Origin: a virus
Direction: 5' to 3' (one strand)
IMG/VR virus record: IMGVR_UViG_3300020027_000020
Location: 1-38,655 of that record
Length of the DNA: 38,655 nt
Below are positions 493 to 38,655 of the stretch, piece after piece; the first letter of the stretch is position 1, and the number at the start of each line of letters is the position of its first letter. A program made the position numbers and the translations under genes. Below the pieces are notes generated by a model. That model did no database searches. It was not told the origin of the DNA and saw only the letters and a list, made by a program, of their open reading frames with translations.

Positions 493-521
493 AGTAGACA
501 TCAATGAATCGATCGTGTCAA
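493..521 (-). promoter_or_regulatory. Leftward promoter with operator core
   Basis: Read on the minus strand: TTGACA (516-521), a 17-nt spacer and TCTACT (493-498). The spacer begins inside the 16-bp core TGACACGATCGATTCA (505-520). The stretch down to about 484 matches the promoters at 8133 and 34596 almost base for base. It starts 11 bases from the stop codon of the polymerase gene and should drive gene 102-287 and, across the circle junction, the small-gene operon from 38532 leftward. The shared core suggests control by one phage DNA-binding protein. Confidence 0.8.
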
Positions 522-531
522 GCGGATCGCC

Positions 532-3500
532 TCACTTCTCGTAGAGGGCGCCCCAGGTGGTGCCGAACACGAACGGCTTGCCCTGCCCGGCAGTGATGCT
601 GACCGGGATCGAGGCACCGGCCGGCGCCCACATGCGGGACATGGCCGACTGCACCGTACGGGCCACCTCCTCACGGTCCTTGCGCGGCACGCTGAGCACC
701 ACCTCGTCATGAACGATGACGCGCAGCATGGGCAGGATCTCCGGCGCCGTAGCGGCCAGCGTGAGCAGCCCCTCGGCAATCAGGTCACGGGTGGTGGACT
801 GGCCGTACATGGCCGGAGCCTGGGTGTACGCCCGGTCCGGGTCCACGCGCAGCTTCCGGCCGAACCCGTTGTCGATCAACGTGCCCTCTTCGCCCAGCGC
901 ACGCACCCGGTTCTGCCACTCGACCACCTTGGAGAACTCCGCGCGCATGTAGCTGTCCAGGTTCTGCGCCGCCTCCATCGTGACGCCTGCCGTGTTCTCG
1001 ACCATGCCGCGCATGCCGCGCCCGTACAGCCACCCCAGGTCCAGTGTCTTGGCTGGCTTGCGGTCGACGCCGGTCCGGTCGGCGATCTCCTGGTGGAAGT
1101 CGCGCGTGGGGTCGTTCAGCAGCGCGATGAGGTTCGGGTCCTGGGAGTGCGCGGCCACCGCTCGGATGTCGATCTGGTCAAGGTCGATGCTGACCAGAAC
1201 CTCCTCGTCTTCGGGCAGCAGGTAGTACCGCTCGCTGTCCGGCACGCCCTTCTTCAGGACCGTGAGGCCACAGCTCCAACGGCCCGTGGTCTGGAACGGC
1301 TCGAAGGTGTAGTGCACGCGGTCGACGATGACGTTGCCCAGCAGGCTCGCCGCGGTGGTGCGCAGCCCGTTCATGCCCTGGACCGCCTCGATCACCGGCA
1401 CGGCCGCGGGCACGTTCTTCTCGGCGTGGGCCAGCGCGTACGCCATCGTCTCCTTCTTCAGGGACAGCGACCCGTCCTTGCCCCGGGGCCAACTGGCCAC
1501 GGGGAACCCGAGCCCGGACAGCGCCGCCTCGAACGCCTTCTTCCCTGCCTCTGTGCGCTGCGGTGCGGCCGACTCCCCGCCACCCTTGGTCGTCAGGGGG
1601 AATCCGTACTCCTGCGAGAGCATCAACTTGCCCGCGGCCGAGCGCTCGGCGTCCTCCTGTACGCGTCCCTGAAGGGCGGGCAGGTCCACCTTGAACCCGT
1701 TGAGCGTGGTGCGCGCCGTGATGGCGCAGACGCGCGCCTCACGCGCCTCGTAGGGATCCCACGGGATGGCAGCGTCCAGCTCTGCGGTGACCTTCAGATC
1801 CTCACGCAGGTACTCGACGTAGCGTGGGTCGCTCGCCGGGATGTGGTCCCACCCGCCGAACTCCTTTGCCAGTGCCTCGCCGAGTCCCGACTTGCCGGGC
1901 CGACCGAGGTAGCGCTCCGACAGGGCGTCCATGCTGTAGCGCTTGAAGCCGGGCCCGGATGCCGTCTCGTAGCTGGTGGGCGGGTCGTTCTGGAATGCGG
2001 CGATGCGCAGATCCCGGCCCCCGATGATCGTCTCCTCCACAGGGACGCCGTGGTGCCAGTCCATGGCGATCGAGTCGAAGAAGAAGTTGTTCACCCCGAC
2101 CAGGGGCAGCGCTTTCATTCCCCGGGTGACAGTCATCAGGTCCGGCGGGGAGGCAGTCACCACCCGATCACCGACGCCGACCAGCTTCACGTACTCGCCG
2201 ACCGGGGCGGAGAACAGGTCGTCGGCGCTGCCTGTCTCGATGTCGAACGGGACGAAGCCCTTGATCACTTCCGCACTGTCGCGAAAGTGATCCGGCTCGG
2301 GGTCCGCGTCGGGCTCGGACGGGCCCTCGAACGGGGAGCCCCCGCCGGCAGGACCTTGACCGTTTCCACGGTTGATCGCTGCGCCGAACCAGCCGCGCAC
2401 CTGTCGGCCACCGGCAGACTTGCGGCCGGTCGTCACCTTCCTGCCCTTGATCGCCTCGTGCCCGCCGAACCGGGACGCGAACGTCTTGTCGTTCCACGGC
2501 CGGTGGCCCGCGTCGCCCGCCCACGTGTTGAAGGCGGTCAGCATCACGGACGACTGAGTGAAGTCCTCCGGGTTGAAGACCAGGCACTCATCACTGAAGC
2601 CGATGATCTGGTCCGTCTCGGCGCGCCATTCACGGGTAGACCGCTCGATCTCCGGCGGGTTCTCCATCATCTGACGGTCACGGGCGTACCACTTGACCGC
2701 CCCCGCCACCATCCAGCTGAGCGCCGCCGCGCGGACGTCGGGATTGTGGTGTGCGTACTGAAGGCTGGGGTCTCCTTGCCGGTCTGTGGCCAGCGTGAGC
2801 GCCTTGCCAGGCTTGCGGAAGGTATACGGGAAGGAGAGCAGGCACAGGCGCCTCCAGGTGCCGTGGTCCGTCTCCGTAACGATCGGCCGGTGGTTGGTGT
2901 TGATGAACAGGCTGTGCGTGGTGGCGAAGGAAACCGTGTCCTGACGGATGCGCCGGGCCGTGATCATCTCCGTGCCCAGGGTGGTCTTGATCCGCTGGGT
3001 GTTGAGGTGCCGTTCCTCGGGCGTCTCCTCAAGGACTGCGTACCGCGCACCCCGCAGATCCATGAGCTCGGTGGGGTGCGCATCGGGGGACGCCATGAGT
3101 ACGCGATCGGAGATGACGACTCCGTACCCGCCGAGCGCGCCGTACACCGCGTTCACGATGGTGGACTTACCGTTCTCGCCGGACCCATGGGCGATGACCA
3201 ACTGGTGGTCCGCCACCGGGTAGCCGGTAGCAGCCTGACCGATCCGGTCCTGATACCAGTCATGCACGCCATCGGGGAGCGCGGTCAGTGCCTTGTCCCA
3301 CATCGGGTGGGTGTAGCCGGGGCGGTACTCCGCGCCCGCGATCTTGGTCATCAGGTCGTCCGGGGAGAACGGGCGCAGCGCGCCGGTCGGCAGGTGCACC
3401 GTGCCGTTGAGAGCGGTCAGCAAGTCGGGGTCCGCATCGAAGTCCTCGGCCCGACGCTGCACGGAGTCGACGCCGCGAGACAGGTCCAGCAGCGCGCGCA

Positions 3501-4527
3501 GCCGGGACTTGCTCAGCACGCCGCGCCACCCGGAGATCTTCCCCGTCAGGTTTGCCGCCTTGTCCGCCGCCTGTGCGGCCAGCGCCCCGTCGTACCGGTT
3601 GCTCGCCCACTGCCGGATCGCTTCCACGGGCTCGACGTCGGAGACCTCACGCCACACCTTGCCGGTCCACGCCATCCAGCCGAGTCCGGCGGACCAGCAG
3701 TACTTCCCGGAGAGCGCCTCATCGGCCGCCTCTTCCACCAGGAACGCGTCGGTGAAGGACGCATCTGCCGCTACCGCTCCGGGCGCCGTAGCGGTAGCGG
3801 CAGCGGCCAGCGTGGCGGTGTCCCCGCCGGCCGCAAAGAAGTCGTCGACGCCCTTCACAGGCACGCCTGCCACCTCGGCGGGGACCACGATGTACTTGAC
3901 CTCTTTGGCCCCGCGGCTGCACAGCCACGCTCCGAGCCGCTTCATGGCCTGCTGCACGTTGCGGTTGCTCGATGCGTCGGCGTCGAAGCAGAGCACCATC
4001 ACGCGCCCCTTGAGGGGGATCTCCTCCCAGTCCCCGAGGACGCCGGTTCCCTGGCGCCAGTTGTAGACGCCGGAGACGCCGAGTGCGGCGCAGCCCTGGG
4101 AGACAAGTGAGTCGACCTTCTTCATGCCCTCGGTGACCCACAGGGGCGTCTCCTCAGGCCCGTCCTCGGCGTCGAGCTTGGCGCGGGTGAACGCGGGGAC
4201 GTCGATGCAGAGCGGCGCGCCCTTGGGCGTCTCGTACTTCCGTGGGACAGGGCTGCCGTCGACGCGCATCCGGAGCAACGGGGTCGCCGGTTTGATCTGG
4301 ACGCCGGCGAGCTCACCGTTGCGGCGGTGCATCGGGACGTACAGAAGGGGGTAGAGCCCCTCCCTGCCGCGCGTGTAGGGGGTGAAGCCGTCCCGCTCCA
4401 GGGTGGCGTCCTCCTCAGCGGTGCCCGTCATGGTCATGTACCCCCGTGCGGCGGCCACCTCGGGAAGGACTGCGGACTGCTCGATGACCTCGGCCATGTG
4501 CGCATCGTTCAACTGCGGAAAGTCCAC
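532..4527 (-). CDS. Toprim-SF3 helicase-exonuclease-DNA polymerase A fusion
   Basis: This 1331-residue protein probably carries out most of phage DNA replication. Visible in order: a Toprim/DUF3854-like part (VTEGMKK near 130-136 and FDAD near 180), a D5-type region, an SF3 helicase with Walker A GSGENGKST near 447-455, a 3'-5' exonuclease (FDIETG near 761, then a YLREDLKVT-type third motif), and family A polymerase motifs (motif A around DLDQIDIR near 1112, motif B with KTLDLGWLYGRG, motif C VIVHDEVV near 1271). No AEP or zinc primase motif was recognised, so priming is uncertain. The GTG start has GAAAGG nine bases upstream; an ATG at 4497 is an alternative. In many phages the helicase and polymerase are separate genes. 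No second polymerase is seen in the window. Confidence 0.92.
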   Translation of the reverse strand: MDFPQLNDAHMAEVIEQSAVLPEVAAARGYMTMTGTAEEDATLERDGFTPYTRGREGLYPLLYVPMHRRNGELAGVQIKPATPLLRMRVDGSPVPRKYETPKGAPLCIDVPAFTRAKLDAEDGPEETPLWVTEGMKKVDSLVSQGCAALGVSGVYNWRQGTGVLGDWEEIPLKGRVMVLCFDADASSNRNVQQAMKRLGAWLCSRGAKEVKYIVVPAEVAGVPVKGVDDFFAAGGDTATLAAAATATAPGAVAADASFTDAFLVEEAADEALSGKYCWSAGLGWMAWTGKVWREVSDVEPVEAIRQWASNRYDGALAAQAADKAANLTGKISGWRGVLSKSRLRALLDLSRGVDSVQRRAEDFDADPDLLTALNGTVHLPTGALRPFSPDDLMTKIAGAEYRPGYTHPMWDKALTALPDGVHDWYQDRIGQAATGYPVADHQLVIAHGSGENGKSTIVNAVYGALGGYGVVISDRVLMASPDAHPTELMDLRGARYAVLEETPEERHLNTQRIKTTLGTEMITARRIRQDTVSFATTHSLFINTNHRPIVTETDHGTWRRLCLLSFPYTFRKPGKALTLATDRQGDPSLQYAHHNPDVRAAALSWMVAGAVKWYARDRQMMENPPEIERSTREWRAETDQIIGFSDECLVFNPEDFTQSSVMLTAFNTWAGDAGHRPWNDKTFASRFGGHEAIKGRKVTTGRKSAGGRQVRGWFGAAINRGNGQGPAGGGSPFEGPSEPDADPEPDHFRDSAEVIKGFVPFDIETGSADDLFSAPVGEYVKLVGVGDRVVTASPPDLMTVTRGMKALPLVGVNNFFFDSIAMDWHHGVPVEETIIGGRDLRIAAFQNDPPTSYETASGPGFKRYSMDALSERYLGRPGKSGLGEALAKEFGGWDHIPASDPRYVEYLREDLKVTAELDAAIPWDPYEAREARVCAITARTTLNGFKVDLPALQGRVQEDAERSAAGKLMLSQEYGFPLTTKGGGESAAPQRTEAGKKAFEAALSGLGFPVASWPRGKDGSLSLKKETMAYALAHAEKNVPAAVPVIEAVQGMNGLRTTAASLLGNVIVDRVHYTFEPFQTTGRWSCGLTVLKKGVPDSERYYLLPEDEEVLVSIDLDQIDIRAVAAHSQDPNLIALLNDPTRDFHQEIADRTGVDRKPAKTLDLGWLYGRGMRGMVENTAGVTMEAAQNLDSYMRAEFSKVVEWQNRVRALGEEGTLIDNGFGRKLRVDPDRAYTQAPAMYGQSTTRDLIAEGLLTLAATAPEILPMLRVIVHDEVVLSVPRKDREEVARTVQSAMSRMWAPAGASIPVSITAGQGKPFVFGTTWGALYEK

Positions 4528-4562
4528 TGGTGCTAGCCTTTCAGTGCGTGTAGCAAGGTGAT

Positions 4563-4599
4563 GAACGCCCGACGGGAGTAAGAGGCCCGTCGGGCGTTC
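4563..4599 (-). terminator. Strong hairpin between HTH gene and replication gene
   Basis: A perfect 14-bp stem (4563-4576 with 4586-4599) with a 9-nt loop lies in the 193-base gap between the replication gene start (4527) and the upstream HTH gene stop (4721). It could end transcription from the HTH gene or attenuate entry into the replication gene. I found no convincing -35/-10 pair for the replication gene between it and 4527, which favours attenuation or an unusual promoter. Confidence 0.6.
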
Positions 4600-4637
4600 T
4601 GCTGTGCGAGGGTGCCTGACCTGCTGAAATTCGCGAT

Positions 4638-4724
4638 CTAGTCGGGTAAGACAGCAGATCCGGTGAAGCCCTAGAGGATTTACCTTACGCGAGTTTTACT
4701 GGATCTGCTGTCTTACCCGACTAG
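4638..4724. repeat. Long inverted-repeat element, copy 1
   Basis: A perfect 24-bp inverted repeat (4638-4661 with 4701-4724) surrounds a 39-nt spacer. The arms read CTAGTCGGGTAAGACAGCAG followed by ATCC. The right arm ends on the TAG stop codon of the HTH gene at 4721-4912. A second copy with the same spacer length and about two-thirds identity in the spacer, in opposite orientation, lies at 25534-25621. The function is unknown; candidates are a replication or recombination site, a MITE-like insertion, or a structured RNA/terminator. Confidence 0.9.
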
Positions 4725-4912
4725 GCGCTTTTCCGGTGCCGCTTTTGGATGGATTCGATCTCCTCTCGTACGTACCAGGGGCGCCCGTTCGCCGGGTCCC
4801 GGTCTTCCGTGATGCGGCCGCTCTCCGCCCACCGCTTGATGGTGCGGATGTTGACGCCGGCCAGCGCGGCCGCGTGCTTCTTCTTGATGAGGGTGCGTGC
4901 TTGCGTCTCCAT
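4721..4912 (-). CDS. MerR/excisionase-like HTH protein
   Basis: A 63-residue DNA-binding protein. The pattern AALAGVNIRTIKRW followed by GRPWYVREEI fits the small winged helix-turn-helix fold of excisionases and MerR/AlpA-like regulators (HTH_17 type): a recognition helix, then a wing and a final helix. The ATG at 4912 is chosen because the longer frame from 4957 has GGAG directly against its ATG and a less plausible N-terminus; the chosen start has only a weak G-rich upstream region. It is divergent from the HTH genes beginning at 4997, across a promoter/operator region, so it is a candidate regulator of that switch. No integrase is present, so a true excisionase role is unlikely. Confidence 0.75.
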   Translation of the reverse strand: METQARTLIKKKHAAALAGVNIRTIKRWAESGRITEDRDPANGRPWYVREEIESIQKRHRKSA

Positions 4913-4930
4913 GCCCCCGAGGATACGGCG

Positions 4931-4982
4931 TGATGCCCGACATTGACACTGGCGCATCTCCGTGACACGATCGATTCATTCA
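4931..4982 (+). promoter_or_regulatory. Rightward early promoter with overlapping operator
   Basis: TTGACA (4943-4948), a 17-nt spacer and CACGAT (4966-4971) precede the gene at 4997. The 20-bp sequence 4963-4982 equals 8134-8153 exactly, but here the operator core covers the -10 and start site instead of the -35 and spacer. An upstream box, atgcccga plus two bases directly before TTGACA, recurs at the 9984 promoter. This layout supports repressor binding rather than shared promoter sequence alone. Confidence 0.7.
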
Positions 4983-8132: not shown

Positions 8133-8161
8133 TTGACACGATCGATTCATTCATGTCTACT
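8133..8161 (+). promoter_or_regulatory. Rightward promoter with operator core
   Basis: TTGACA (8133-8138), a 17-nt spacer and TCTACT (8156-8161). The shared operator core TGACACGATCGATTCA spans 8134-8149, and TAGGGCATC follows the -10 as at the two leftward sister promoters. It drives three micro-genes (8188-8472), ends at the hairpin 8481-8511 and may read through into the nuclease gene. Confidence 0.8.
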
Positions 8162-10116: not shown

Positions 10117-10187
10117 TCCGCAGTAGCTCAACGGCAGAGTGCCCACCATCCAGGTGGGAGATCCGGGTTCGAATCCCGGATGCGGAG
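10117..10187 (+). tRNA. Atypical tRNA, formal anticodon UCC (Gly?)
   Basis: A cloverleaf is visible: acceptor 10117-10123 with 10180-10186 (one G-A mismatch at the base), a GCTC/GAGT D-stem, a perfect anticodon stem CCCAC/GTGGG, a 4-nt variable loop, and a perfect T-arm CCGGG-TTCGAAT-CCCGG. The 7-nt anticodon loop is CATCCAG, so the formal anticodon is TCC (10149-10151), but position 33 is A instead of the near-invariant U. Position 73 is G and CCA is not encoded. G73 is unusual for Gly tRNA and more like Trp, yet a CCA reading would require broken stem pairs. Amino-acid identity is uncertain. Confidence 0.75.
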
Positions 10188-10399
10188 CGAGTCTACGACC
10201 CACCGTGAAGGGCAAACGGCTTCTGGCCAACACCCTGGATCGGGCGAAAGATTCGGTGAGGCTTCGGCTCAACTGGTCGGAAGAGTCATAAGCAGGGAAG
10301 TCCATCCCGAACCTACACCAAACGGACACGGCGCCCTGCCACTTTTGACGGGGCAGGGCGCCAACCACAGAACCCGACACAGAAACGGAACCCGAAACC
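10188..10399 (+). other. Untranslated leader between tRNA and gene 10400
   Basis: This 212-base stretch contains no convincing gene. A 28-codon frame from GTG 10205 lacks a ribosome site. The main feature is a hairpin at 10330-10362. The last 30 bases before ATG 10400 have no clear Shine-Dalgarno sequence, only GGAACCC. The region may be the 5' part of the mRNA released by processing at the tRNA 3' end. Confidence 0.5.
10330..10362 (+). terminator. Hairpin upstream of gene 10400
   Basis: An 11-bp perfect stem (10330-10340 with 10352-10362) with an 11-nt loop containing TTTT. It lies 38 bases before the start of the next gene. It could terminate the tRNA transcript, or act as a stabilising or regulatory structure in the leader of gene 10400. 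No separate promoter was found after it, which argues for a leader structure. Confidence 0.5.
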
Positions 10400-23585: not shown

Positions 23586-25343
23586 TTAGGCGGGCACCGG
23601 CGGGGCGGTGCAGCCCGTGGTGTTGGCGCCGGTCGGGCCCGCGACACAGCCGGCCACGGTGTAGAGGCGCAGCCCGGGGCACGGGTAGATGGGCGCGAAG
23701 CCCTCTTCCGCGAACAGGGCCGTGAACTGGTTGGTGGCCAGCGACGCGGCGTCGTAGACGTTGGTCAGCGTGACGACGTCCTGGCGGGCGACCGCGACGG
23801 ATCCGGCCGGGTAGGCGAGGAACTGGACCGACTGCGGCAGGGACGTCATGAACGGGGTCGTAGCGTCGCCGCCAGGACGTCCCGGGTTGAGGGCGCCACC
23901 GGTGATGAGACCGTCCTGCCAGCCGCGCACGAACTGCGGACGCACGCCGCGGGTCGAGAAGAGCGACGCGATCTGGGAGTCGGGCACGTTGAGCAGGTCG
24001 ACGCCGGTACGGCGGGAGAGGTCCGCGCGGATCTGGGCAATGACCCAGTGCGGGAGGACGATCTCCAGTGTCGAATTGAACGGCATCAGCTGCTGGTAGA
24101 CCAGGTCCTCACGCGCGAGTTCAACCGCGGCCAGCAGCGCGGCGGTGAACGAGTCGTCGCCGAATGCCGGGTTGGTGAAGACGGTCGCTGCGCCCGCGGT
24201 GGCGAGCATGTCGGCGAGGATGAGCCGGTTCATCTCCTGCTCGTGCGCGGCCAGGAGACCGTCGGACCACAGGTTGACCAGCTCGGGGTATCCCGCGGCC
24301 TGAAGGAAGCTGACCCTGATGCAGAGCGCCATGACGTCCAGGCGGCGGTCCGTGAAGTCGGGGCACGGGATGACGGAGCAGGTCTTGACCGTGTCCGCGA
24401 TGACCTGGGCTTCGGTGAGGAAGTTCGAGCCGCCACCGACCGCGACCGCGTTGGCGTAGATCTCCGCGAAGGACGGCTCGGCGGTGTAGTTCAGGCCGCC
24501 GCGCCGGGCGGTGACGGTCGGAAGGTCGAGGATGCCGGTGCTGCCGTCCCACAGGCGGCACAGGTCGTACACGTTCTCGGACGGGGCGCACCAGCCGGCC
24601 GCGGCGGTGAGGCTCTTGCCGCTGTCCACGTTGTGCTGGAACTGCTTCGCCAGGGAGCCGCCGTGCAGGCGCGACTCGGACCGGGCGTGGCGCAGCACCT
24701 CCATCTGGCGGTTGTTGTCGTCGCGCGCCTCGATGGTGAACTCGGCGCCGCGGTCACGCTTGAACTGCGCGATGGCCTGTCGACCGCCGCGGCCACCGCC
24801 GCTGCGCCCGTACTGCTGGGTGGATGCGATGAGGGCTTCGGAGACCTGGGTGAGGCCGTCGTACGCCTCGCCCGCGCTCTTGCCGACGAACCCGGCGGCG
24901 TCGCCGGAGACGTACGCAGTAATGCGGTTCTCACCGGACTTGGCGACCGCGGTGGGCAGGACGGCCTGTGCGGCCATCTGAGAGACGCTGGGGACAGAGG
25001 CGACCACAGGGGCCACCGCAGCCGGGGCAGGCTCCACAGCGGGCGCCTGCGCCACGGGAACGGCGACGGGGAGCGTGCGCTCCGGGAGGGCGCCGAAGGA
25101 GTCGCGCTGCGCCTGCACCTGAGCGGCGGTCGCAGTGATCTCGTCGAGGCGGGCACCGGCCACGGTCACGTGCTCGGCCATGAGACCGAGCTCGGCGATC
25201 TCTTCGGGCGTCAGGTCCCGCTTGGCCGCAAGCTCTGCGCCGCGGGTGCGGGCGCTTTCGTACGCGGTCTGGACCGCCGCGTCGTCGAGGCCGTCGACGC
25301 TGAACGCCGCCGGCTCGATCGGGGGGGTGATCTCTTCGGACAT
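23586..25343 (-). CDS. Major capsid protein with N-terminal scaffold-like domain, 585 aa
   Basis: The N-terminal 110 residues are charged and helical, then Ala/Pro/Val-rich, the pattern of a fused scaffolding (delta) domain. The remainder is an HK97-like coat: FAEIYANAVAVGGGSNFLTEAQV, VMALCIRVSFLQAAGYPELV, LEIVLPHWVIAQIRADLSRR, and a Phe/Leu-rich C-terminus. ATG 25343 has GGAGG seven bases upstream. A protease gene precedes it, consistent with scaffold removal. Cleavage is probably after the Ala/Pro/Val region. Confidence 0.85.
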   Translation of the reverse strand: MSEEITPPIEPAAFSVDGLDDAAVQTAYESARTRGAELAAKRDLTPEEIAELGLMAEHVTVAGARLDEITATAAQVQAQRDSFGALPERTLPVAVPVAQAPAVEPAPAAVAPVVASVPSVSQMAAQAVLPTAVAKSGENRITAYVSGDAAGFVGKSAGEAYDGLTQVSEALIASTQQYGRSGGGRGGRQAIAQFKRDRGAEFTIEARDDNNRQMEVLRHARSESRLHGGSLAKQFQHNVDSGKSLTAAAGWCAPSENVYDLCRLWDGSTGILDLPTVTARRGGLNYTAEPSFAEIYANAVAVGGGSNFLTEAQVIADTVKTCSVIPCPDFTDRRLDVMALCIRVSFLQAAGYPELVNLWSDGLLAAHEQEMNRLILADMLATAGAATVFTNPAFGDDSFTAALLAAVELAREDLVYQQLMPFNSTLEIVLPHWVIAQIRADLSRRTGVDLLNVPDSQIASLFSTRGVRPQFVRGWQDGLITGGALNPGRPGGDATTPFMTSLPQSVQFLAYPAGSVAVARQDVVTLTNVYDAASLATNQFTALFAEEGFAPIYPCPGLRLYTVAGCVAGPTGANTTGCTAPPVPA

Positions 25344-25533
25344 TGCGGAGCCTCCATAGGCACGCTGGGACGGGGTGGACACATCTCAGCGACCGGCTCT
25401 CAGCTCAGCATCGCGTTGTACGGGATCAGCATAGCGCGGGGGCGCCCGGCGGACCGTGGTGCACGCCGTATCCGACCAATTCGGACACGCGCAGTGGATC
25501 TTGAAACAGCTGAAAGGCCTGCTCAGACAGCAC
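25344..25533 (-). other. Capsid leader region without clear gene
   Basis: This stretch precedes the capsid ribosome site. Two tiny coupled frames are visible on the minus strand: 25426-25488 (GTG, 20 codons) and 25400-25432 (ATG, 10 codons). Neither has a good ribosome site. They could be leader peptides or chance. No -35/-10 pair meeting the pattern of the other phage promoters was found here. Confidence 0.4.
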
Positions 25534-25621
25534 CTAGTCGGGTAAGACAGCAGATCCTGTAATCCTCACGTAAGGCATTTCTATCTGGGGTTCACCGGAT
25601 CTGCTGTCTTACCCGACTTAG
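25534..25621. repeat. Long inverted-repeat element, copy 2
   Basis: A perfect 22-bp inverted repeat (25536-25557 with 25597-25618) around a 39-nt spacer, with arms identical to copy 1 at 4638-4724. The left arm keeps all 24 bases (25534-25557); one extra T at 25619 breaks the outermost pairs on the right. The spacer, when reverse-complemented, matches that of copy 1 at about 26 of 39 positions, including GGTGAA at one end and CCTTACG in the centre. So the two copies are inverted relative to each other. Confidence 0.9.
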
Positions 25622-25642: not shown

Positions 25643-25816
25643 CTAGGCCTTTTTGCGGGGGATAGGCCGCACTGTGGCCCTTCGCCCCTTTGCGTTCTGT
25701 GCGATCCAGATGCGCGCCTCTGCCACGGTCTTTCCCGTGAAGACCGATTCACCCTCAATCGTCACCGCGTACTCATTGGTCGCACGGTTGCCGCCACCGC
25801 AAGATCCACAACTCAT
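25643..25816 (-). CDS. Small Cys-rich-start protein, 57 aa
   Basis: It begins MSCGSCGGGNRATNEY, then a small alpha/beta unit (YAVTIEGESVFTGKTVAEARIWI), and ends basic (RKKA). ATG 25816 has GAGAGG upstream and follows the protease stop by one base. Similar small CxxC-start proteins sit near capsid genes in Streptomyces phages. It may bind metal; the function is unknown. Confidence 0.65.
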   Translation of the reverse strand: MSCGSCGGGNRATNEYAVTIEGESVFTGKTVAEARIWIAQNAKGRRATVRPIPRKKA

Positions 25817-25817
25817 G

Positions 25818-26984
25818 TCAGTGCCCTCTCGTCTGCCACGCCCAGCGGGCGCGCTCTGCCGAACCATCATCCTTCGGCGCCACCTGCTCCGGCACCGGGC
25901 CCCGCACCGGCGTCACACCAAACGTGCCGATGAGCGACTGCTGCGCCCCGTTGGAGAACGCCACCCGCGCCCGCGGCACCGGGAAGCCGGGCGTGTTCAC
26001 GCTGCACACCGCAATCAGTTCCAGCTCACCGCCGATCGGCCGCCAGTCACCCGACACCGGCAGCGACATGAACTGGTCCACCCGGGCCTGGTCGGCGTAG
26101 GGGTTGATCCAGCCCGTGACCGCGATGCCGAACTCGTCGTCGTACGCGCAGACCTTGGCGACCGCGGAAGCGATGTCGTCGTAGTGCTGCTGCGCAGCCC
26201 TGAAGGGGTCACCAGGGGCCGCGTGGGACGGTCCGGTCACCAGGGACCCGACCGGCACTGTCGCGCCCTCCTGCGTCCGCTGAGCCCCCACGTGGAAGTG
26301 CGCGTACCCCGAGGCGCTGTACGGGGCCGTCACGCACCCCGGCAGACCGACGTGGCAGGTGTCGTGTGCGGCGATGTGGCCGAACACCCTGCCGTCCTCA
26401 GTGACCGTGAGAGGCGTCAGCTCCGTGAAGCCGGGGTCGGAGAACCAGCCCGCAGGCGGGAGCGCCTCAGCGGGCGCAGCACTGGCATACAGGGCGTCCC
26501 ATGCAGCTTCCTGTTCCGGCGTGTACACGGGGAACTGCTCTTCCTCCACAGCGGGTTCCATGTCCATCGGCTCGACAGGCCGTGGGTCCAGGGTCAGGGA
26601 CACGTCGGAGAACGCCGGGATGGCGACCAGGGTCGCACCGGCCACGCGCCATTTGGTGACGACGATGCGCTCCATCTCATCCATGACGTACTCAAGGTCA
26701 TCGAGGTCCACGGATGGGCCGATCACCCCCGCCTCCAGTTCCTCGATGACCTTGTAGGGGATGTCGTCGAGCATCGTCCCCGTGGCGGTCACCATGCCGT
26801 TGGCGAACTGGAGCGACTCCATGCGCGCCACGATGATGCTGCCGAGATGCCCGTTATCGCTCCTCTCCTGCCACGAGATGGGCAGCGGGAGCGTGCGCCC
26901 GGTCCCCGCCCCCTCCACCAGGATGCGTCCGTCACCGGTCGGCACGCCTGTGCGTGCCAGAACCGCGGACCAGGTTCGTGCCAT
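25818..26984 (-). CDS. Capsid maturation protease, 388 aa
   Basis: The first 140 residues have the layout of a prohead protease: LPLPISWQERSDNGHLGSIIVARMESL near 33-60, PSVDLDDLEYVM near 90-102, and VAGATLVAIPAFSDVSLTL near 114-132, where a Ser acts in the HK97-type fold. The second half (GRVFGHIAAHDTCHVGLPGC, SGYAHFHVGAQRT, GPSHAAPGD) is the His-rich extension found in actinophage proteases. It cleaves scaffold and coat during head assembly. ATG 26984 has AGGAG upstream. Confidence 0.85.
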   Translation of the reverse strand: MARTWSAVLARTGVPTGDGRILVEGAGTGRTLPLPISWQERSDNGHLGSIIVARMESLQFANGMVTATGTMLDDIPYKVIEELEAGVIGPSVDLDDLEYVMDEMERIVVTKWRVAGATLVAIPAFSDVSLTLDPRPVEPMDMEPAVEEEQFPVYTPEQEAAWDALYASAAPAEALPPAGWFSDPGFTELTPLTVTEDGRVFGHIAAHDTCHVGLPGCVTAPYSASGYAHFHVGAQRTQEGATVPVGSLVTGPSHAAPGDPFRAAQQHYDDIASAVAKVCAYDDEFGIAVTGWINPYADQARVDQFMSLPVSGDWRPIGGELELIAVCSVNTPGFPVPRARVAFSNGAQQSLIGTFGVTPVRGPVPEQVAPKDDGSAERARWAWQTRGH

Positions 26985-34046: not shown

Positions 34047-34344
34047 AATTGTGTCCCCCTGCCTTACACGCCGCGCACTTACTGTCGTCGTCCCCCTCGA
34101 TGTCCGGGTCGATGAGGTCTGCGGCCTTGCGCATGTCGTACTGCCTCTGCGGCCAGCCCTCCCATCCGTCAGCCTCTTCGCGGATCTCAGCCACTGCCTC
34201 GCGCCGTTCCTGGGAGCGGATCTTGTCGAGGATCTCGATCTGCTCCCACGTGAACCGGAGTCCCGGCATCCTGTCACCAGGTTTGTTCAGACCCAGGGAC
34301 ACGGCCAGTTCATCCACCAGCTTGACGATCTTGTCGTCATTCAT
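34036..34344 (-). CDS. Hypothetical protein with C-terminal Cys/His, 102 aa
   Basis: Helical and highly charged (KIRSQERREAVAEIREEADGWEGW), ending KCAACKAGGHNC, a likely zinc site. ATG 34344 overlaps the stop of the 23-codon gene (ATGA). Function unknown. Confidence 0.6.
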   Translation of the reverse strand: MNDDKIVKLVDELAVSLGLNKPGDRMPGLRFTWEQIEILDKIRSQERREAVAEIREEADGWEGWPQRQYDMRKAADLIDPDIEGDDDSKCAACKAGGHNCGS

Positions 34345-34415
34345 CAGTGCCCACACCCCTTCACCCATCCGCCGCACTTACCGCAGTACGTTCGCTCGTG
34401 CGGGTTGTCGCTCAT
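34344..34415 (-). CDS. Micro zinc-binding-like protein, 23 aa
   Basis: A 23-codon frame (ATG 34415) with YCGKCGGWVKGCGH, resembling half a zinc ribbon. It overlaps neighbours on both sides by ATGA. The G-rich upstream sequence is a weak ribosome site. Credible mainly from tight coupling. Confidence 0.5.
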   Translation of the reverse strand: MSDNPHERTYCGKCGGWVKGCGH

Positions 34416-34595: not shown

Positions 34596-34624
34596 AGTAG
34601 ACACCCGTGAATCGATCGTGTCAA
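34596..34624 (-). promoter_or_regulatory. Leftward promoter with operator core
   Basis: On the minus strand: TTGACA (34619-34624), a 17-nt spacer and TCTACT (34596-34601), with TAGGGCATC following. The operator core TGACACGATCGATTCA spans 34608-34623. The -35 overlaps the stop codon of the upstream gene at 34621-34623. It drives the six small genes 34558-33120. Confidence 0.8.
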
Positions 34625-38326: not shown

Positions 38327-38532
38327 GCCTTAACCGCCTTGCATGCCGTGCCGGGCAGGCGGAGCCACAGGGGCCCTTCCACCGGGCGCCACGGGCGCGG
38401 GTCGTGCGGCGCCCTCGGTACGAACTCCACGGGCCGGTTACGGACACTGTCCGGTGCCGCCTCGGCCACGATGGTGCAGCCCATCTGCTGCGCCCTGTGC
38501 AGTGCCCGGCTGGCACTCCCTCGCTTCTTCAT
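38323..38532 (-). CDS. Hypothetical basic protein, 69 aa
   Basis: Rich in Arg and Pro (ASRALHRAQQMGCTIVAEAAP, RAPHDPRPWRPVEGPLWLRL). ATG 38532 has AGGGAG six bases upstream. The left repeat (positions 1-20) holds the beginning of this gene with Lys2 changed to Gln and a further change after codon 5. First gene after the hairpin on the circular map. Function unknown. Confidence 0.6.
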   Translation of the reverse strand: MKKRGSASRALHRAQQMGCTIVAEAAPDSVRNRPVEFVPRAPHDPRPWRPVEGPLWLRLPGTACKAVKA

Positions 38533-38655
38533 GTCCTGCTCCCTGTGATCGGTTCTTCTACCACCCCTGCCCCCGTACCGGCGTGCGGTACGGGGGCGAT
38601 GGAGCGGGGCCGGTCAGTGGGTGCTAGCTCTACGCTCTGCTCGTTCGGCCTGCCA
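38513..38655. repeat. Terminal direct repeat, right copy
   Basis: Same sequence as 1-143 except for three differences. It includes the start of gene 38323-38532, the hairpin (38569-38597) and the last codons (38614-38655) of the gene whose complete copy is at 102-287. Joining the ends gives a circle of about 38,512 bases with the leftward operon unbroken. Confidence 0.9.
38569..38597 (-). terminator. Second copy of the 12-bp hairpin
   Basis: Identical to the hairpin at 57-85, carried in the right terminal repeat. On a circular map it is a single hairpin between the 61-aa gene and the 69-aa gene. Confidence 0.6.

Follow-up and report, generated by a model that had tools for sequence, protein, structure and literature searches.

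The 38,655-nt stretch of DNA analysed here (the window), a 38.6-kb tailed-phage record, carries two stem-loops with matched arms, and comparison with related phages indicates that both are likely to be sites of DNA replication that the phage's own P4-family primase-helicase (532-4527, minus strand) recognises. The two hairpins most likely represent paired start or control sites for genome copying. The original prediction had listed "paired origins or replication fork barriers" among several possible roles, and it is this proposal that the comparative evidence supports well.

Two stem-loops with identical arms

The copy nearest the primase-helicase gene (copy 1 or element B; 4638-4724, plus strand) has arms at 4638-4661 and 4701-4724, perfectly paired over 24 bp, around a loop at 4662-4700, and the second (copy 2 or element A; 25534-25621, minus strand) has arms at 25536-25557 and 25597-25618, perfect over 22 bp, around a loop at 25558-25596. 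The initial description of a perfect 24-bp repeat occurring twice therefore stands for copy 1 and has to be shortened to 22 bp for copy 2; the equal 39-nt spacers, the opposite orientation of the copies, and the 26 of 39 spacer positions that match in that orientation, GGTGAA and CCTTACG included, were all confirmed on re-measurement. The 22-bp arms are identical between the copies, so that one set of repeats is present at two cis sites. Perfect arms of at least 17 bp at comparable spacing occur nowhere else in the window, nor did any arise in 40 Markov-2 random sequences of the same composition, where the longest arms reached 14 bp. Chance origin of the pair is ruled out, and the pair is not peculiar to the window phage. 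Both elements have a GC content of 50%, against 67% for the genome.

A 140-nt terminal direct repeat (4-143 and 38516-38655) makes it probable that the window record is circular or terminally redundant. Copy 1 sits between a gene for a small MerR/HTH_17-like protein (4721-4957, minus strand; Pfam matches sub-threshold) and the gene for the 1331-aa primase-helicase-polymerase, about 110 nt upstream of the start of the latter; as predicted it abuts a stop codon, that of the small gene, which overlaps its outer end. The predicted placement of copy 2 was likewise borne out: it is flanked by a small conserved gene (25643-25870, minus strand), which many relatives also have upstream of element A, and downstream by the major capsid gene (23586-25382, minus strand). 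The window phage also has a tRNA-Gly (TCC) gene (10117-10188) and a dispersed promoter- or operator-like repeat, TTGACACGATCGATTCA, at 505-521 (minus), 4962-4978 (plus), 8133-8149 (plus) and 34608-34624 (minus), followed in three of its four copies by TGTCTACTTAGGGCAT.

Occurrence, position and orientation across phages

Nucleotide BLAST with the 161-nt region returned zero matches in phage and plasmid collections, a blank explained by the fast change of the arms, and searches of viral contigs for the exact arm patterns found one orthologue and two chance matches. Relatives were found by protein-guided searches. A capsid-guided search gave 33 loci, many with a stem-loop of 85-92 nt at the same place whose arms are different yet perfectly paired; changes are compensatory, on both sides of the stem, in 18 of 24 pairs. 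One locus considered as an empty site (L008) was rejected as such, the element being present with changed inner arms.

Exactly two stem-loops are present in all six of the near-complete ~40-kb relatives examined first. Whole records with two copies are G000, G001, G002, G004, G008, G014 and G011, the last a fragment, and a k-mer finder of paired inverted repeats returned exactly those pairs in five of these records and nothing in 60 random genomes; G002 and G008 had been missed by the first model searches, and each carries two copies with unrelated arms. In total, two stem-loops and never three occur in 21 phage records (22 counting a fragment), although, the phages being related, the number of independent cases is below 21, and possibly not all records are complete. 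One of the two is found within or next to the P4-family primase-helicase gene and the other in the late region, at a mean distance (the shorter way around the circle) of 0.45 of record length across the 21 two-copy records, with a minimum of 0.37; eight phages of 89-99 kb, each with two copies, place them 0.47-0.50 apart. A single copy, at the primase, is all that four circular phages of 78-84 kb carry; the family at large can thus dispense with the late-region copy.

With the primase half as query, 80 viral loci were recovered, and a strict stem-loop scan was positive within or beside the primase gene at 61 of them, including phages of very different layout, and negative at 19. No element was found near the primase of OscarSo, Wyvern or FuzzBuster within the stretch read. 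Angelica, a mycobacteriophage growing on M. smegmatis, has a stem-loop at ~47,085-47,211, which is not reported in those parts of the cluster K paper that we consulted (PMC3203893). An additional copy of the Angelica arm repeat occurs at 47002, upstream of the stem-loop (L206-L208, 47002-47209), and LuckyBarnes has a weak candidate near its genome end, an imperfect AT-rich hairpin with 33% GC (L180, 114-223).

The primase-side copies take several positions: of the 60 that are distinct, 29 are within the open reading frame of the gene, 20 follow its stop codon and 11 precede the gene. In the subgroup of the window, element B immediately precedes the primase-polymerase gene; in G002 and G008 it lies in frame within the linker of that protein. 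The in-gene copies are buried deep in the reading frame, some 2 kb away from its end. Orientation relative to the flanking genes varies among phages. Related RHH-like genes, recognised by eye and with no Pfam match, were seen in L008 (~4460-4900, minus) and L072 (6749-7294, plus); one relative has such a gene next to element A, and in G002 one occupies the position where element B is normally found.

These positions argue against a role in RNA. A structured RNA, RNase III site or terminator in the early and late transcripts would be in keeping with the compensatory changes and with the very stable RNA hairpin predicted by folding, a check suggested with the original prediction (z = -8.4 to -11). 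However, the orientation to neighbouring genes is inconsistent, and the 29 copies within coding sequence stand where a terminator or an RNA cleavage site would divide the message; coding-strand stem mismatches number 6 G-T against 9 A-C among 1239 stem pairs, giving no G-U excess; neither window copy has the consistent T-run of an intrinsic terminator; and Rfam at gathering score matched only the tRNA in the window, leaving the elements unmatched. Because half of the primase-side copies are in coding sequence, G-U pairs are not in excess and orientation varies, we favour a function of the elements as DNA, and consider the structured RNA of the original prediction quite improbable.

Orientation and placement also bear on two mobile-DNA explanations, both of which we consider highly improbable. 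Recombinase or invertase sites acting on the intervening 20.9-kb segment, as had been suggested, should be inverted, as they are in the window, G004, G014, G011 and G019-G021; but direct pairs are as common, being found in G001, G002, G023-G026 and every large phage. Between the window and G014 the entire structural module is flipped, element A included, and the breakpoints of module inversion are thus not at the elements. The suggested MITE-like insertion would be in keeping with the perfect terminal inverted repeats, the CTAG-like ends and the one copy in G002 that is in frame within a gene, yet the elements occupy two fixed positions per genome, never more, and the same position holds different arms in different phages. 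Exact-pattern copies in 296 Streptomyces genomes were at control level only, so that the arms are no more frequent than chance in the genomes sampled; this is a better test than a search of 199 Streptomyces genomes with an RNA model (R2), which came back empty but, with 22 candidates scored per genome, shows little.

The primase-helicase and its co-variation with the arms

The proposed reader of the elements combines DUF3854 (residues 126-236), D5_N (274-414), DUF5906 (447-560) and a family A DNA polymerase domain (DNA_pol_A, 1028-1317), and residues 370-683 match the P4-family primase model TIGR01613 with 154.9 bits against an NCBIfam cut-off of 108.7. By Pfam the archaeo-eukaryotic Prim-Pol domain is absent from the window primase, which has DUF3854 instead. 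At the C-terminal end of the helicase part, residues ~637-720 (2368-2619, minus strand) form a predicted winged helix with a mean pLDDT of 84, which superimposes on the P4 origin-binding domain (1KA8) with Z 8.6 and rmsd 2.2 over 76 aligned residues and also resembles ASFV primase and RFX domains. For the C-terminal domain of the primase-helicase, a fold resembling that of the P4 origin-binding domain is thus predicted, a likeness that alone is no proof of function.

Arms are matched within a genome and differ between genomes, with 8-mer similarities of 0.275 and 0.036, respectively, across 22 genomes, the within-genome match being weak in G001, G030, G033 and G034. Across the family they repeat with a period of 9 bp (identity 0.57 at lag 9 against 0.20-0.28 at all others); the repeat is clear in relatives and degenerate in the window, where 6 of 15 positions are identical at that lag. 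The loop retains TTAAC-like and ACGTGAGG-like motifs. Arm distance tracks distance in the primase C-terminal region best (Mantel r 0.69, 44 phages), though such correlations are inflated by shared ancestry, and in regression the C-terminal region of the helicase half has a standardised coefficient of 0.61, against at most 0.20 for other regions. Cleaner evidence for this co-variation is a swap between G001 and G002, where the backbone is ~94% identical and the primase-helicase half and both elements have been exchanged together. Next to element B of G001, at 34300-34386 (L070 14300-14386), we also noted an extra inverted arm copy, GTCTTATCCGTCTA, which may provide additional half-sites.

The same swap weighs on a further explanation, that the elements are operators of a phage regulator, a small HTH or RHH protein governing early and late genes, with the arms a binding palindrome that follows its specificity. 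The arms are indeed phage-specific, palindromic and common to both copies, and homologues of the window's HTH gene adjoin element B in G001 and G014, with a similar small gene in G004; the small HTH protein beside copy 1 could be the arm binder. Yet the HTH-side region is still 88% identical between G001 and G002 while arms and primase half differ, half of the primase-side copies are buried in a reading frame far from its end, and the stem-loops accompany the primase at those 61 of 80 loci, in phages of very different layout. We therefore regard operators as unlikely, and favour sites read by the primase-helicase.

As replication sites, the elements would work as follows. The C-terminal winged helix of the helicase half may bind half-sites in both arms, four per element, which in relatives lie two per arm and 9 bp apart; the palindrome would allow SF3 helicase rings to assemble on the AT-richer core, which would open or extrude as a hairpin, with priming to come next. 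The primase-side copy is probably the origin, because it persists where only one copy exists. We infer that the late-region copy could be a second origin, a partner site like P4 crr, or a fork-stalling site. More tentatively, and with rather less than even confidence, we suggest a two-site system widespread in tailed phages, in which a P4-family primase-helicase would read a phage-specific code of four half-sites in a perfect palindrome, with one copy at the primase gene and a second about half a genome away among late genes, the latter acting as a second origin or as a fork trap that sets when circle replication gives way to concatemer synthesis. For most actinobacterial phages the origin is, to our knowledge, not known. 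The analysis predicts origin and initiator from sequence in dozens of phages, Angelica among them, and points to a natural specificity code in which a protein domain would be matched to a 90-bp site; it also raises the question of why there are two sites on opposite sides of the genome.

Comparison with known replication sites

We found no description of the paired, palindromic, type-matched form of this element, which is probably of the P4 and pRN1 kind and joins the P4 crr and the pRN1 and BPP-1 stem-loops in a single picture. The arrangement of two sites for one initiator is known from SPP1, where oriL lies within the initiator gene and oriR among late genes, gp38 binds both, and a fork stall at oriR has been proposed (PMC6316719). 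The SPP1 oriR, in a moron-bearing gap among late head genes (PMC6316719), recalls the late-region copy. In contrast to the window phage, SPP1 has gp38 as initiator with a DnaB-type helicase, and its sites are direct repeats with an AT-rich unwinding element, a conserved perfect palindrome not being reported.

The single element resembles that of pRN1, where replication depends on a 100-bp stem-loop that adjoins a primase/SF3/winged-helix gene and remains functional when moved (PMC4234260). A stem-loop of ~100 bp adjoining a gene for primase, SF3 helicase and winged helix, with structure kept and sequence not, is common to pRN1, phage BIP-1 and its near-identical relative BPP-1, BIP-1 being the phage cited in PMC4234260, and the window likewise has its stem-loop adjacent to the replication gene. 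The arms of the BPP-1 stem-loop are a 9-bp tandem repeat, TTGCCTCGT TTGCCTCGT. Unlike the window primase, these primases are of the archaeo-eukaryotic (prim-pol) type, and a matched second copy is not described there.

The pair as a whole has parallels in P4, for which the facts on ori and crr come from the annotated P4 record. Alpha and the window protein share a P4-family primase, D5_N, an SF3-type helicase and a winged-helix domain of the origin-binding fold, predicted in the window protein, DUF5906 also being common to both. In each genome the short repeats recur at two cis sites, one of them adjoining the primase gene; P4 type-1 repeats are 9 bp apart and then followed by inverted ones, as in the family arms, the 9-bp repeat being degenerate in those of the window, and the relative spacing is similar, crr to ori being 0.42 of the P4 genome. 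The systems differ in that crr and ori are not perfect palindromes like the window copies, that alpha has no family A polymerase fusion, and that crr is immediately 3' of alpha whereas the window element is 5' of the primase gene. Two loci of G024 (L188 and L200) have arms that contain GGTGAACA, the half-site of the annotated P4 type-1 repeat.
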